A stretch of DNA of 38,783 bases, taken from contig JALGTU010000008.1 in assembly GCA_029821195.1 (NCBI GenBank), forward strand, positions 1 through 38,783. Direction: 5' to 3'. This DNA comes from Candidatus Zipacnadia bacterium. GTDB lineage: Bacteria; Armatimonadota; Zipacnadia; Zipacnadales; Zipacnadaceae. The position numbers and the translations under genes were made by a program. Each line of letters opens with the position of its first letter. Position 1 is the first letter of the stretch. The notes under the pieces are model-generated. The model was not told where the DNA came from. It did not search any database and was given only the letters and a program-made list of their open reading frames with translations. Of the stretch, positions 4,394 to 9,457 are shown in pieces.

Positions 4394-5122
4394 ATGGCAT
4401 CTCTGGTCCTGCTTCATACCGCAGATATGCATAACCGCCTCAGTGCAGCGGGGGCTCAACAGTTGGGTGAGTTGCGCGAGCAGAACGAGGCGCTGCTGCT
4501 GGACGCAGGCGATGCGGTCGGCGCGGGTAACGTTACGGTCCGGCGCACCGAGCGGATTATTGATTTGATGAATCGGGCGGGCTATGCGGCGATGGCGGTG
4601 GGCAACCGGGAGTACTTTTTCCGCAAGCGGGGCATGATCCGGAAGACCCAGGGGGCGGAATTTGCCGTGCTCAGCGCCAATCTGCGGCCAGTGCGTGGCG
4701 ATCTGGGCCATATCGAGCCGTGGACCATAGTCACCACTGCCGATGGCGCGAGGGTCGGGATATTTGGGCTGACCCCGACGATGATCCCCGCGGGGAGCTG
4801 GGCGGTGCTATTCTCCGATTCGCGCTTTGTTCCCTGGAAGAGAGCAACGCAACAGGTCGTGACGGCGCTTAACGGGCAAGTGGACTGGCTGGTAGCGTTG
4901 AGTCATCTGGGAGAAGAAGGCGATCGAGAACTAGTGGAGAGCTTCCCCGAGATTGACATCGTGTTGGGAGGGCATAGCCATCCGAAGGTGGCGCAGTTCG
5001 AGCACCTCACGCGGCGATTGGTCTGCCGGCCCGCGCCGTACGCCAAGGAAACGCTGCTGGTGACGATTTCGCAGACGCGAGGCAATAATCATTACGAGAC
5101 CAGCGTGATCGAACTACTATGA
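4394..5122 (+). CDS. Calcineurin-like metallophosphoesterase, 5'-nucleotidase type, altered GNHE motif
   Basis: The 242-residue protein corresponds to the N-terminal catalytic domain of UshA/CpdB-type 5'-nucleotidases, without the C-terminal substrate domain. Metal motifs visible are HTADMHNR (D-x-H), LLDAGDAVGAG (GD), LSHLGEEGD and LGGHSHPK. The third motif, normally GNHE, reads GNRE (bases 4603-4614), so the conserved transition-state histidine is arginine. No signal peptide is seen, so a cytoplasmic location is likely, unlike secreted UshA. Three possible starts stand in a row in frame (GTG 4388, TTG 4391, ATG 4394); I take the ATG. Its end overlaps coaX by four bases (ATGA), showing coupling. 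It sits directly after kdsD, where kdsC would often lie. Substrate unknown; KDO-8-phosphate is a guess from context only. Confidence 0.8.
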   Translation: MASLVLLHTADMHNRLSAAGAQQLGELREQNEALLLDAGDAVGAGNVTVRRTERIIDLMNRAGYAAMAVGNREYFFRKRGMIRKTQGAEFAVLSANLRPVRGDLGHIEPWTIVTTADGARVGIFGLTPTMIPAGSWAVLFSDSRFVPWKRATQQVVTALNGQVDWLVALSHLGEEGDRELVESFPEIDIVLGGHSHPKVAQFEHLTRRLVCRPAPYAKETLLVTISQTRGNNHYETSVIELL

Positions 5123-5910
5123 GCTGGAGCTGGTACGCGGACGTCGGTAACTGTACGGTGCACTGGGCCGCCTGGGCGCAGGACCGGTGGCAAGGTTCAG
5201 GACGGCTGGCAGTGGACTTGCTCGAACGTCCGGACTGGCAGGGGACGCTGTTGGCAGCACTGGAGGACGTCGGACTGGAGGCAGCGGATTGTGAGCAGGC
5301 TGTTTTGTGTGTGAGCTCGCCGCGGCAGCAGGCAAACATAGAACAGTTCGCGAGGCAGTCACTGGGCAGCAGTAGCCTCGTGGCGCGGGCTGATTTCCCG
5401 GTGGAGGTGGCGACCGATTACTACGATCCGGCCCAGATCGGCGCGGACCGGCTGCTGAATGTGCTGGGAGCAATGGTGAAAGTCGGTAAACCGTGCGTGG
5501 TGATAGACTTCGGGAGCTGCGTGACCTGCGATGCGGTGACGGCGGAGGGAGTGCTGACGGCAGGCGCGATTGCCGCTGGGCTGCCGGTGGTGCAAGCGGG
5601 ACTGCACAGCGCGGTGCCGCATCTGAGCAAGCAGCTTAACGAAGCTGTACAACTGGTTAGGAGTGCATCCGTGCCAGCGGGGCGCGCTACCGCTGAGGGT
5701 CTGGCGCTGGGAATATTGGCGGGCATCGCCGGGACTGCGGATCGGCTGATTGAGATTATGCGCCACAGGCTAAGGGCCCCCGCGCCGGTAGTAGCCACGG
5801 GCGGTGATGCAGAGCTATTCGCTGGGCATTGCGCAGTGGCGATGGTCACGGACGAAATGCTCACGCTCGACGGTCTGCGACTGGCGTATGAAAGAGCAAG
5901 AGGTCAGTGA
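5119..5910 (+). CDS. coaX: Type III pantothenate kinase, divergent
   Basis: CoaX phosphorylates pantothenate, the first step of coenzyme A synthesis. It is an ASKHA-fold enzyme. The 263-residue protein shows the N-terminal phosphate loop as YADVGNC (family DxGNT), the conserved IGADRLLNVLGA stretch, and the second phosphate motif as VVIDFGSCVTCDAV (family DFGTATTFD). The motif that is usually GGxIxPG is AGAIAAG here. The key aspartates (first D of DVGN, D of GADR, D of DFG) are kept, but two threonines of the phosphate motifs are cysteine or serine. Late motifs TAEGLALGILAGIAG and VVATGGDAE fit the family. Start ATG 5119 overlaps the phosphoesterase stop. I am fairly sure of the family and less sure of undiminished activity. 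Confidence 0.82.
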   Translation: MSWSWYADVGNCTVHWAAWAQDRWQGSGRLAVDLLERPDWQGTLLAALEDVGLEAADCEQAVLCVSSPRQQANIEQFARQSLGSSSLVARADFPVEVATDYYDPAQIGADRLLNVLGAMVKVGKPCVVIDFGSCVTCDAVTAEGVLTAGAIAAGLPVVQAGLHSAVPHLSKQLNEAVQLVRSASVPAGRATAEGLALGILAGIAGTADRLIEIMRHRLRAPAPVVATGGDAELFAGHCAVAMVTDEMLTLDGLRLAYERARGQ

Positions 5911-5935: not shown

Positions 5936-6883
5936 ATGAAGCACATACTGAGCATCAGCCTGGGATCATCAACGCGGGACAAGAGCGTCGAGATAGATAC
6001 TCTGGGCGAGCGGTTCCTGTTGGAGCGGCGGGGCACAGACGGGGATCTCCAGCGGTTTGCGCAGTTCCTGAAGCAAAACGACGGTAAGGTAGACTGCCTG
6101 TGCCTTGGCGGAACTAACCTGGGACTGCACTGGGCCGGGCGCTTCTACCCCTTCCGGGATATTCAACGGGTCACCCGGGGAATCAAGCGCACGCCACTGG
6201 TAGACGGGGCCGGACTCAAAAACTCCCTGGAACGGGAAACGATAAGGCGGCTGCAGGATGAGGGCGTGATAGATTTTAGGCGGGCCAAGGTCCTGATTCC
6301 CTGTGCGACCGACCGGGTTGGGATGACTGAGGCGATCTGTGCGCTGTCGTCTGACTATATTCTCGGTGACTTGATGTTCAACCTGGGGGTGCCCATACCC
6401 CTACACTCCACACAGTCGCTGGATACTATGGTGCGGCTGCTGCTGCCGATCGTGCGGCGCCTGCCGTTCAAGTGGCTGTATCCCACCGGGAGCAAGCAAG
6501 AGGAGATCCGGCCTAAGTACCAGCGCTATTACCAGTGGGCGGATGTGATCGCCGGAGACTTCCCCATAATTCGGCGCCATCTTCCTGACCAGCTTGACCG
6601 GGGGATCATTATTACCAATACAACTACCGAAGAGGACGTCGAAGTGCTGGTGAGTCGCGGGGTGCACCTGCTGATAACTACAACGCCGGTCATCGAGGGC
6701 CGTAGCTTCGCCACCAATGTCATGGAAGGCGTCTTCGTGTGCCTCATGGACAAAGCGCCCGGGGAGGCCAGCGCCGAGGAGTATCTGGCTATGGCTGAGA
6801 AGATGGGTTGGGCGCCGACAATCAGAGAGTTGAATCCGCCCGAGGGGCGGTCAGTAGCCGGGGGTTATGTGAATAATGGCTAA
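5936..6883 (+). CDS. 'Quinate 5-dehydrogenase'-labelled family protein, function uncertain
   Basis: The 315-residue protein matches from memory a family found mainly in Firmicutes and thermophiles. It is labelled quinate 5-dehydrogenase in databases, as far as I recall without firm biochemistry. Hallmarks are SISLGSSTRDKSVEI at the N-terminus, RRGTDGDL, CLGGTNLGLH, TPLVDGAGLKNSLERE, GDLMFNLGVPIPLHS, LYPTGSKQEEI, VIAGDFPIIRRHLP, IITNTTTEEDV and VIEGRSFATNVMEGV. I do not see a classical glycine-rich Rossmann loop, so a dehydrogenase activity is not evident. No signal peptide or membrane segment is present. The last eight bases overlap the start of the next gene (ATGGCTAA), so the two proteins are made together and probably work together. 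That partner is an acyl-ACP-reductase-like dehydrogenase. Confidence 0.65.
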   Translation: MKHILSISLGSSTRDKSVEIDTLGERFLLERRGTDGDLQRFAQFLKQNDGKVDCLCLGGTNLGLHWAGRFYPFRDIQRVTRGIKRTPLVDGAGLKNSLERETIRRLQDEGVIDFRRAKVLIPCATDRVGMTEAICALSSDYILGDLMFNLGVPIPLHSTQSLDTMVRLLLPIVRRLPFKWLYPTGSKQEEIRPKYQRYYQWADVIAGDFPIIRRHLPDQLDRGIIITNTTTEEDVEVLVSRGVHLLITTTPVIEGRSFATNVMEGVFVCLMDKAPGEASAEEYLAMAEKMGWAPTIRELNPPEGRSVAGGYVNNG

Positions 6884-7943
6884 GTTCGCCTTCATACTCC
6901 ATCCGCTTACCGCCCGGGATGTGGCCCGCAAGTACCCGTGGACAGCATGGCTGCCGGAACGAGTGCTCGAATGGGTAATGACCAGGACGCCCGCGCAAAC
7001 GATCAGCGAGATCACTGGTATCCACTCGGCCACCGGTGCGGAGACAACCGGGTGGTTTGTCGGCTGCCCACTCACGGCTCGACAACTCATGGATGCGAAC
7101 CCCGAGCGGGGGCTGGAGAAGATCATCGAGGCCGGGCAGGTCGCCGTGCAACTTGGGGCGGATATCGTTGGGCTGGGGGCATTTACCGCAGTGGTCGGCG
7201 ATGCAGGGATAACTGTGGCGGAAAATCTGGACATTGCGGTGACCACCGGCAATAGCTACACCGTGGCGATTGCGGTGCGGGGGCTACTGGACGCGGGCCG
7301 TCGGCTGGATATTGATCCAGAACAGGCTCACGCCGTGGTGCTGGGCGCCAGTGGTTCGATTGGCCGGGTCTGCGCGCACCTGCTGGCAGGTGAGGTAAAC
7401 TCCCTGACCCTGGTCGGACGATCGGACGACCCTGTAGCCGAGGTGGCTGGTGAGCTCGCGGAGCAAAGTGCGACGGTCAGCACCACAACAGATGCAACTA
7501 GCGCGCTGCTCCAGGCCGACCTGGTGGTGACAGTGACCTCAGCGCTGGAGGCGATTGTTGAGCCGGAGATGCTCAAGCCGGGCGCGGTGATATGTGATGT
7601 GGCGCGGCCGCGCGACGTATCATGGCGTGTGGCCGAGGAGCGCGAAGATGTGCTGGTCATCGAAGGCGGCGCGGTCGAGGTACCGGGCCAGGTTGAGTTC
7701 AATCTTGACTTTGGATTTCCGCCGCGGACAGCTTATGCCTGCATGGCCGAGACCATGATACTAGCGCTGGAGAACCGCTGCGAGAGTTTCACGCTGGGCA
7801 GACGGCTGGAGGTGGATAAGGTGCGCGAGATCGAGCAGCTTGGCGACAAGCACGGCTTTCGGCTCGCCGGCTTTCGCTCATTCGAGCGGGTAGTCACCGA
7901 GGAGCAGATTGAGCGGGTTAGGCGGCTGGCCCCTCGTGCGTAG
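6876..7943 (+). CDS. Acyl-ACP reductase (AAR)-like dehydrogenase, COG5322 type
   Basis: The 355-residue protein resembles cyanobacterial long-chain acyl-ACP reductase along its length. It has an N-terminal domain with LGADIVGLGAFTAVVG and TTGNSYTVAIAVRGL. An NAD(P)-binding Rossmann loop VVLGASGSIGRVCAHLL spans about residues 154-170, followed by LTLVGRS. The C-terminal part has CDVARPRDVSW, VIEGGAVEVPG and TAYACMAETMILALE. The cysteine at about 289 lies where AAR has its acyl-thioester cysteine (family -ACFAEA-). Downstream LGRR-EVDKVREIEQLGDKHGF also parallels AAR. No aldehyde decarbonylase (ADO) gene is in the window, so the cyanobacterial alkane pathway is not implied. Its substrate might be an acyl thioester or an amino acid derivative. 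It is coupled to the preceding 'quinate dehydrogenase' homologue. Confidence 0.75.
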   Translation: MAKFAFILHPLTARDVARKYPWTAWLPERVLEWVMTRTPAQTISEITGIHSATGAETTGWFVGCPLTARQLMDANPERGLEKIIEAGQVAVQLGADIVGLGAFTAVVGDAGITVAENLDIAVTTGNSYTVAIAVRGLLDAGRRLDIDPEQAHAVVLGASGSIGRVCAHLLAGEVNSLTLVGRSDDPVAEVAGELAEQSATVSTTTDATSALLQADLVVTVTSALEAIVEPEMLKPGAVICDVARPRDVSWRVAEEREDVLVIEGGAVEVPGQVEFNLDFGFPPRTAYACMAETMILALENRCESFTLGRRLEVDKVREIEQLGDKHGFRLAGFRSFERVVTEEQIERVRRLAPRA

Positions 7944-7984
7944 TGACCTGGGGCAAAGGAGATCATCCAGCAAAGGAAGCGACC

Positions 7985-9457
7985 ATGTCCGAGCCGCGGG
8001 ATGAGTACCAGCGTAGACTGGCCAAACTGAGCCGACTGAAACGCCAGGGGCAGGACCCGTTCAGTCATCACAGCTACCGCCGCAGCCACGTAACGGCCCA
8101 GCTCCAGAGCAATTTCGCGGAGTGGGCAGGCCAGCAGGTGTCTGTGGCGGGGCGGATCGTGGCGGTGCGCGGGCACGGCAAGTCCATCTTTGTCGATCTG
8201 CAGGATGCCAGCGGAACTGTGCAGGTATACGCACAGGTAGACGTGCTGGGGGAGGAAGAGTACGCACGCTTTCAGGATCTCGACCTGGGTGACATAATCG
8301 GGGTGCAGGGCGAACTGTTTCGGACCCGGAGCGAGGAGGTGACGGTGCGCTGCGAGCAGTTCGAGCTGCTGGCCAAAGCACTGCGGCCGTTGCCGGAGAA
8401 GTTCCACGGGCTCCAGGACCAGGAACTGCGCTACCGACAGCGCTACGTTGACCTGCTGGCCAACGCGGAAGTGCGGAAGATCTTCGAGACGCGCAGCCGG
8501 ATCGTTCAGGTGGCGCGCGACCATCTGATTGAGCAGGGGTTCCTGGAAGTCGAGACGCCGGTGCTCCAGCCGCTGTACGGCGGGGCAGCAGCCCGCCCCT
8601 TTACCACCTACCACAACGCACTGGAAATGCAGCTCTATATGCGGATCGCGCCGGAGTTATACCTCAAGCGCCTGGTCATCGGGGGGCTGGAGCGGGTCTT
8701 CGAGATCGGGCGGGTGTTCCGCAACGAGAGTATAGACACGCGCCATAATCCCGAGTTCACTATCCTGGAAGCATACCAGGCTTACGCCGACTACGAAGCG
8801 ATGATGGCACTGACCGAAGGGCTGGTTGGTGCGATGTGCCAGGCAGTCCACGGCGGGCTGCAGTTCACCTACCAGGGCAACGAGATTGACCTCACACCGC
8901 CCTGGCGGCGCATTGCGCTGCTTGATGCCATCGAGCAGTACAGCGGCGTGACGCTGAGCGGCATCGCGGATGCCCAAACAGCCCGCGAGCAGGCGGTTGC
9001 CGCCGGCCTCCAAGCGGAGACGATAGAGGGGCAATCGCTGGGGTACATCATTGACAAGCTGGCGGACCGGTTCGTCGAGCCGGAGCTTGTGCAACCCACC
9101 TTTATCACCGATTACCCGGTGCAGATCTCACCGTTGGCCAAGCGCAAGGCCGATGCTCCGGAGCTTACCGCGCGCTTCGAGCCGTTTATCGGGGGTGAAG
9201 AGATCGGCAACGCCTTCAGCGAGCTAAACGATCCGCTGGACCAACGGGAGCGGTTCGAAGCCCAGGTGGCAGCTCGCGCCGCCGGCGATGAGGAGGCCCA
9301 TCCGCTCGACGAGGATTTTATCCGCGCGCTGGAATACGGCATGCCACCCACCGGCGGCCTGGGGATAGGGATTGACCGGCTGGTAATGCTGCTCGCCGAC
9401 CAGCCCAACCTGCGCGAGGTGATCTTCTTCCCGCTGCTGCGGCCCAGTGGCCAATAG
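7985..9457 (+). CDS. lysS: Lysyl-tRNA synthetase, class II
   Basis: LysS charges tRNA-Lys with lysine in the cytoplasm. The 490-residue protein has an N-terminal OB-fold anticodon-binding domain (VAGRIVAVRGHGKSIFVDLQ, about 50-70) and the class II catalytic core. Motif 1 lies in EQGFLEVETPVLQPLYGGA. Motif 2 is FRNESIDTRHNPEFTILEAY. Motif 3 is GGLGIGIDRLVMLL near the C-terminus. HPLDEDFIRALEYGMPP is also typical. The frame is open from GTG 7943, directly after the preceding gene. I chose ATG 7985 because AAGGAAGC stands just before it and MSEPRDEYQRRLAKL is the usual beginning. It follows the AAR-like gene by 41 bases and probably shares its transcript. Confidence 0.96.
   Translation: MSEPRDEYQRRLAKLSRLKRQGQDPFSHHSYRRSHVTAQLQSNFAEWAGQQVSVAGRIVAVRGHGKSIFVDLQDASGTVQVYAQVDVLGEEEYARFQDLDLGDIIGVQGELFRTRSEEVTVRCEQFELLAKALRPLPEKFHGLQDQELRYRQRYVDLLANAEVRKIFETRSRIVQVARDHLIEQGFLEVETPVLQPLYGGAAARPFTTYHNALEMQLYMRIAPELYLKRLVIGGLERVFEIGRVFRNESIDTRHNPEFTILEAYQAYADYEAMMALTEGLVGAMCQAVHGGLQFTYQGNEIDLTPPWRRIALLDAIEQYSGVTLSGIADAQTAREQAVAAGLQAETIEGQSLGYIIDKLADRFVEPELVQPTFITDYPVQISPLAKRKADAPELTARFEPFIGGEEIGNAFSELNDPLDQRERFEAQVAARAAGDEEAHPLDEDFIRALEYGMPPTGGLGIGIDRLVMLLADQPNLREVIFFPLLRPSGQ

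Follow-up and report, generated by a model that had tools for sequence, protein, structure and literature searches.

In a window of 38,783 nucleotides (the whole stretch of DNA analysed here, contig JALGTU010000008.1 of a Candidatus Zipacnadia bacterium), two overlapping genes, in the following called P1 and P2, raise the question of which reaction their products carry out and whether they carry it out together. The preliminary description of this DNA had suggested that the pair may form an undescribed two-component aldehyde or reductase system, and it had doubted the label 'quinate 5-dehydrogenase' given to one of the partners. The 8-base gene overlap reported there is borne out (Table 1) and, at the level of the sequence, suggests a single transcript as well as coupled translation of P1 and P2.

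Table 1. Features of the P1-P2 locus and its flanks, in positions of the window
Feature	Position	Strand	Remarks
P1	5936..6883	+	315 aa; no modelled family; AAR-like fold in predicted model
P2	6876..7943	+	355 aa; putative stand-alone acyl-thioester reductase, AAR/PigE-TR superfamily
Overlap of P1 end and P2 start	6876..6883	+	8 bases
P2 dinucleotide loop GASGSIG, residues 157-163	7344..7364	+	corresponds to AAR 162-168
P2 Cys289	7740..7742	+	corresponds to nucleophile Cys294 of AAR
P1 Asp126-Arg127, invariant	6311..6316	+	loop that would hold the Gly motif in a Rossmann fold
P1 Asn261, invariant	6716..6718	+	opposite P2 Cys289 in a structure-aided, non-significant alignment
Type III pantothenate kinase (coaX)	5119..5910	+	context; frequent neighbour of the pair
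Lysine--tRNA ligase (lysS)	7943..9457	+	context; GTG start of ORF at 7943, first ATG at 7985

Judged by sequence and predicted structure, P2 is a member of the thioester-reductase superfamily of acyl-ACP reductase (AAR) and PigE. Its AlphaFold model (pLDDT 89.9) matches AAR structures over the full length, with TM-scores of 0.73-0.80 to seven AAR chains, which are at the same time its top seven PDB matches, the best one being AAR-NADPH-ADO (TM 0.80). By sequence, PDB chains 4ppm and 6jzq are matched over most of the P2 length. In residue-by-residue alignments, Cys289 of P2 falls on Cys294 of AAR and Cys296 of PigE and is invariant (73/73 sequences), and the loop GASGSIG falls on 162-GATGDIG-168 of AAR, with Gly157, Gly160 and Gly163, as well as Glu292, being invariant among the 73 sequences. 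The AAR likeness claimed earlier for the second protein thus holds for fold, loop and nucleophile alike, including the GASGSIG loop itself and the cysteine of YACMAET, which in the full alignment does take the place of the AAR nucleophile. This catalytic anatomy is directly supported. The best-scoring NCBIfam model is that of PigE (NF053554) with 228.8 bits at a curated cut-off of 850, and the model of cyanobacterial AAR (TIGR04058) reaches 116.8 bits at a curated cut-off of 449.7; the Pfam family 'Shikimate / quinate 5-dehydrogenase' (PF01488) is matched with 52.5 bits, above its cut-off of 24.3.

Regarding cofactor, partner and substrate contacts, R189 in the NADPH-phosphate pocket of AAR corresponds to R182 of P2 (kept in 69/73 sequences), the place of AAR R193 is taken by the variable position 186 (Pro in P2), and that of AAR R314 by position 309 (Arg or Lys in 70/73). 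The ADO-contacting AAR residues R73, R79, K80 and R118 correspond to N75, E81, K82 and E116, with Lys80 alone being kept. In line with the earlier remark that ADO is absent, a search for ADO (PF11266) gave no hit in any of 61 sampled Armatimonadota genomes, while the positive control Synechococcus elongatus was detected. Additionally, the invariant Arg244 of P2 occupies the place of the tunnel-lining Tyr247 in AAR, which makes a long-chain substrate uncertain.

P1 was assigned to no Pfam or NCBIfam family at E-values up to 1 and matched no PDB sequence at E-values up to 10; a search of PDB sequences with the P1 profile gave weak, chance-like matches only, mostly to GroEL, which were discarded. 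For its predicted model (pLDDT 92.2), the top Foldseek match in the PDB is AAR (6jzq_A, E 1.4e-6, TM 0.45). Carmabin TAD, which is P2's next-best PDB match behind AAR and on which nothing of use was found in the literature, is matched by P1 with TM 0.50-0.53 (Foldseek), and other Rossmann-type proteins gave E-values similar to that of AAR at TM-scores below 0.4. Sequence homology between P1 and P2 is not detectable by hhalign (E 0.14-0.2, with or without predicted secondary structure); in a structure-aided, non-significant alignment, N261 of P1 lies opposite Cys289 and E264 opposite E292. It is only through the fold of the model, at moderate TM-scores, that common descent of P1 and P2 is suggested.

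As already remarked for the first protein, a Gly-rich dinucleotide loop is absent in P1, the equivalent strand-loop-helix reading CATDRVGM, with SAVDRFGM as consensus at the would-be dinucleotide site. Its invariant residues include D90, K95, E99, D126, R127, D145, D208 and N261, and no conserved Cys was found across 116 sequences. P1 was rejected as a shikimate/quinate dehydrogenase, since it has neither a PF01488 or NCBIfam match nor a Gly-rich NAD loop. Hence, the earlier doubt about the 'quinate 5-dehydrogenase' label is justified insofar as P1 shows no sign of such an enzyme, but the PF01488 match sits in P2.

Among 201 Armatimonadota genomes, 192 have a relative of P1 (138 of the 140 good ones) and 190 a relative of P2 (136 of the good ones). 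Conservation of both genes in this phylum is far above chance, and the pair is found in nearly all Armatimonadota as well as in many Bacillota. No P1 homologue was found on plasmids. One scan of GTDB contigs yielded at least 575 P1 relatives, of which 80 loci were kept for neighbourhood analysis, mostly from Armatimonadota and thermophilic or anaerobic Bacillota, along with a single MAG each of Thermoflexia and Thermaceae. P2 directly follows P1 in 47 of these 80 loci (45 by script, and L064 and L085 by eye, where over-long ORFs had masked it). A hand count over those Armatimonadota genomes of G061-G211 with both genes listed (86 genomes) placed P1 and P2 on the same strand within about 400 bases, P1 first, in 52 cases, within 3 kb in 5 further ones, and apart in 29. 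Conserved adjacency in other genomes, on which the preliminary description had made its proposal depend, was therefore found: the pair is adjacent in about 60% of genomes, in the order P1 to P2, and the conserved pairing is a direct observation.

The usual gene order in Bacillota is coaX-dus-HTH-P1-P2-greA-lysS, and P1 and P2 are neighbours outside the coaX-dus-greA-lysS stretch too, e.g., in L119, L132, L134 and L139. In these four Armatimonadota loci, a 125-aa gene lies directly upstream of P1-P2; it looks RidA-like by eye in L132 and has an equal length in the other three. The HTH protein of about 180 aa with a C-terminal domain (L093:5448-5993 and 34 other loci) precedes P1 in most Bacillota loci and may regulate the pair; in Carboxydothermus it remains with P2 (L143), and P1 is located elsewhere. 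Two genomes carry a 37-residue P1 start just upstream of P2 (G004:C46:21479-21589 in L060; G006:C25:151792-151902 in L192) and, elsewhere, a full-length P1 that has diverged (about 48% identical), an apparent replacement of P1 in place. Some Bacillota (L206, L207, L208, L210, L211) have a second, more divergent P1 paralogue with a conserved neighbourhood of its own and without P2; no functional link was found in the neighbourhoods of these extra paralogues. In further Bacillota, of which two or more are Syntrophomonadaceae, a protein of about 300 aa occupies the P2 slot after P1 (L090:2816-3712, L114:1561-2469, L136:5243-6130, L137:2896-3852); not being recognised by the P2 profile, it was dismissed as a decayed P2. 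The Thermaceae MAG carrying P1 (L127) also encodes a 559-aa P2-like protein (L181:1453-3129), with the Cys motif present and the Gly loop altered.

Co-occurrence was assessed in 149 genomes of the Bacillota phylum of Thermoanaerobacter wiegelii. P1 is present in 117 of them, and an intact stand-alone P2, defined by a score over 400 bits, in 77, every one with P1, this number including a high-scoring P2 of genome G336 in which Cys is replaced by Ser (L173). Thus, 77 of 117 genomes with P1 have an intact P2, compared to 0 of 32 others (Fisher p 8e-13, shared ancestry ignored); by co-occurrence, P2 depends on P1. A fusion of a class III transaminase with a P2-like reductase occurs in 22 of the 149 genomes, 21 of these with P1. 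Among P1 genomes, 2 of the 77 that have an intact P2 carry the fusion, compared to 19 of the 40 that lack one (p 5e-9, shared ancestry ignored), leaving 21 of 117 with neither. All 18 transaminase-first fusion domains (18/18) fall into one clade in a quick tree.

Where a fusion is present, the stand-alone P2 is usually missing or without its catalytic Cys. In L159, L168 and L172, the P2 beside P1 reads YPWMAET, with Trp in place of Cys and a changed Gly loop, while the fusion in the same genomes retains both features. G336 shows the gene row HTH-P1-fusion (L155), and G302 has a separate transaminase before an intact P2 (L183), its P2 beside P1 being decayed (L223). From these sequences, P2 and the fusion look interchangeable, so that an aldehyde product is predicted for P2; the exchange is likewise an argument for P2 catalysing the reduction that the fusion carries out. 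In L163, L165 and L166, the fusions adjoin a DegV-like gene and a conserved gene of about 140 aa, both identified by eye. A PigE-like transaminase was also considered as a third component in the genome of the window, where the best match, G000:C10:5230-6432 (390.9 bits), scores higher as a putrescine aminotransferase (523 bits) than as PigE (416 bits) and was kept as a lead only.

We infer the following course, which extends to the contact between P1 and P2, to what P1 does, and to the acyl substrate and end product. Cys289 of P2 would be loaded with an acyl group delivered by acyl-ACP or acyl-CoA, as happens at Cys294 of AAR before reduction by NADPH (PMC7089970); NAD(P)H bound in the GASGSIG loop would then give the hydride, and the aldehyde would be released from P2. 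Related enzymes likewise convert thioesters to aldehydes (PMC7089970, PMC8341465 and PMC9594044). P1, probably from the same transcript, would be a dedicated partner with an AAR-like fold, in which cofactor loop and nucleophile have been swapped for other invariant polar residues; most likely it binds P2 and receives, guards or gates the reactive aldehyde as a stand-in for ADO. In a group of Bacillota, the fusion would have taken over the reductase step, with the aldehyde there probably being turned into an amine. The acyl group may be a fatty acyl, as the fusion relatives and the DegV-like neighbour (read by eye) suggest by analogy, or something more polar, as Arg244 suggests.

That P2 works as an NAD(P)H-dependent acyl-thioester reductase and P1 as the dedicated partner handling its aldehyde is a reading to which we give about even credence. 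It is favoured by the P1-P2 order being conserved across phyla, by AAR being the best PDB fold match of P1, and by the dependence of P2 on P1 and the loss of the P2 cysteine in fusion genomes, both directly supported, while the separation of the two genes in 29 of 86 Armatimonadota genomes, the lack of detectable P1-P2 homology, the moderate fold match of P1 (TM 0.45-0.53) and the 21 of 117 P1 genomes that have neither an intact P2 nor the fusion count against it. More tentative, and on the whole somewhat unlikely, is the wider proposal of P1 as a new family, namely a divergent AAR-fold relative in obligate complex with a stand-alone reductase, acting as aldehyde acceptor in place of ADO or a transaminase in a core pathway of Armatimonadota and Bacillota. 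Nearly equal in weight, if slightly more doubtful, is the idea that P1 is itself the enzyme of a two-step pathway, consuming the aldehyde or supplying the acyl group rather than serving as helper subunit. The many invariant charged or polar residues of P1 fit such a role, several of them lying in the model at strand ends, where Rossmann-type active sites are found, and its retention where both intact P2 and the fusion are missing implies that P1 may also act independently of them; but no known catalytic motif or family was found in it, and the fact that intact P2 never occurs without P1 suits a subunit equally.

It is unlikely that P2 acts on an acyl thioester that is small and polar, resembling malonyl or succinyl thioesters, e.g., on a route close to CoA metabolism that leads to beta-alanine or another amine. 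Arg244 in place of the tunnel Tyr, the frequent neighbour coaX and the exchange for a class III transaminase fusion would agree with it, but coaX-dus-greA-lysS resembles a plain housekeeping order in which adjacency may be meaningless, the DegV-like gene near some fusions hints at fatty acids, and related fusions work on fatty or polyketide chains (PMC9594044, PMC10829540). More improbable still is a functionally unrelated P1 and P2, kept as neighbours only by an old conserved housekeeping gene order. The position of the pair within that stretch and the separation of the genes in about a third of Armatimonadota speak for this; however, adjacency recurs beyond the stretch, intact P2 is never seen without P1 across 149 genomes, and the fusion, too, is found in a row with HTH and P1.

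If the reading of P2 as reductase and P1 as its aldehyde-handling partner is true, an aldehyde-forming acyl-thioester reductase that is not part of any known alkane or pigment pathway belongs to the core genome of an entire phylum, together with a partner family named by neither Pfam nor NCBIfam, and the pair would point to a widespread aldehyde-making step. The natural exchange of a P1-linked reductase for a transaminase fusion makes this chemistry directly testable, and the fusion genomes offer a rare series of catalytic Cys decay in a retained protein. Open-access papers yielded no literature on the P1-P2 pair, and no mention of P1 was found in the available parts of PMC9594044 and PMC10829540. 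As far as the searched libraries and open-access literature go, neither P1 nor its connection with P2 appears to have been described, while the reductase belongs to a known kind: as it is interchangeable in Bacillota with the published transaminase-AAR fusion class, the reductase half is not new chemistry. Overall, the preliminary description is correct in what it observed and partly correct in how it interpreted this.

Among known systems, AAR (TIGR04058; PDB 6JZQ, 6JZU, 6JZY, 6JZZ) shares with P2 the three-domain fold, the dinucleotide loop and the catalytic Cys, at about 31% identity over 308 aligned residues. P2 was nevertheless rejected as cyanobacterial AAR proper, because it misses the curated cut-off, no ADO gene occurs in the phylum sample and the ADO contacts are mostly lost; Arg in place of Tyr247 and the companion P1 set it further apart. 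PigE (PDB 4PPM; PMC8341465), a thioester reductase joined to a transaminase, provides the best NCBIfam model and an aligned nucleophile, but P2 is a stand-alone protein of 355 aa without the transaminase domain and scores far under the cut-off, and was thus not assigned to it. Published transaminase-AAR fusions include PtTamH, which converts C12-ACP to an amine (PMC9594044), PP_2782 (PMC10829540) and the homologues of PP_2782 in the thermophiles Thermaerobacter and Thermincola (PMC10829540); these have the same domain order as the Bacillota fusions that replace stand-alone P2, from which P2 differs in being a separate protein beside P1. Finally, glutamyl-tRNA reductase (HemA) follows a shared logic, in which a Cys thioester is formed, hydride is transferred and the aldehyde passes on to a PLP enzyme (PMC8341465), while the match of P2 to it is limited to the dinucleotide-binding part (TIGR01035, 40.7 bits vs a cut-off of 209.55).
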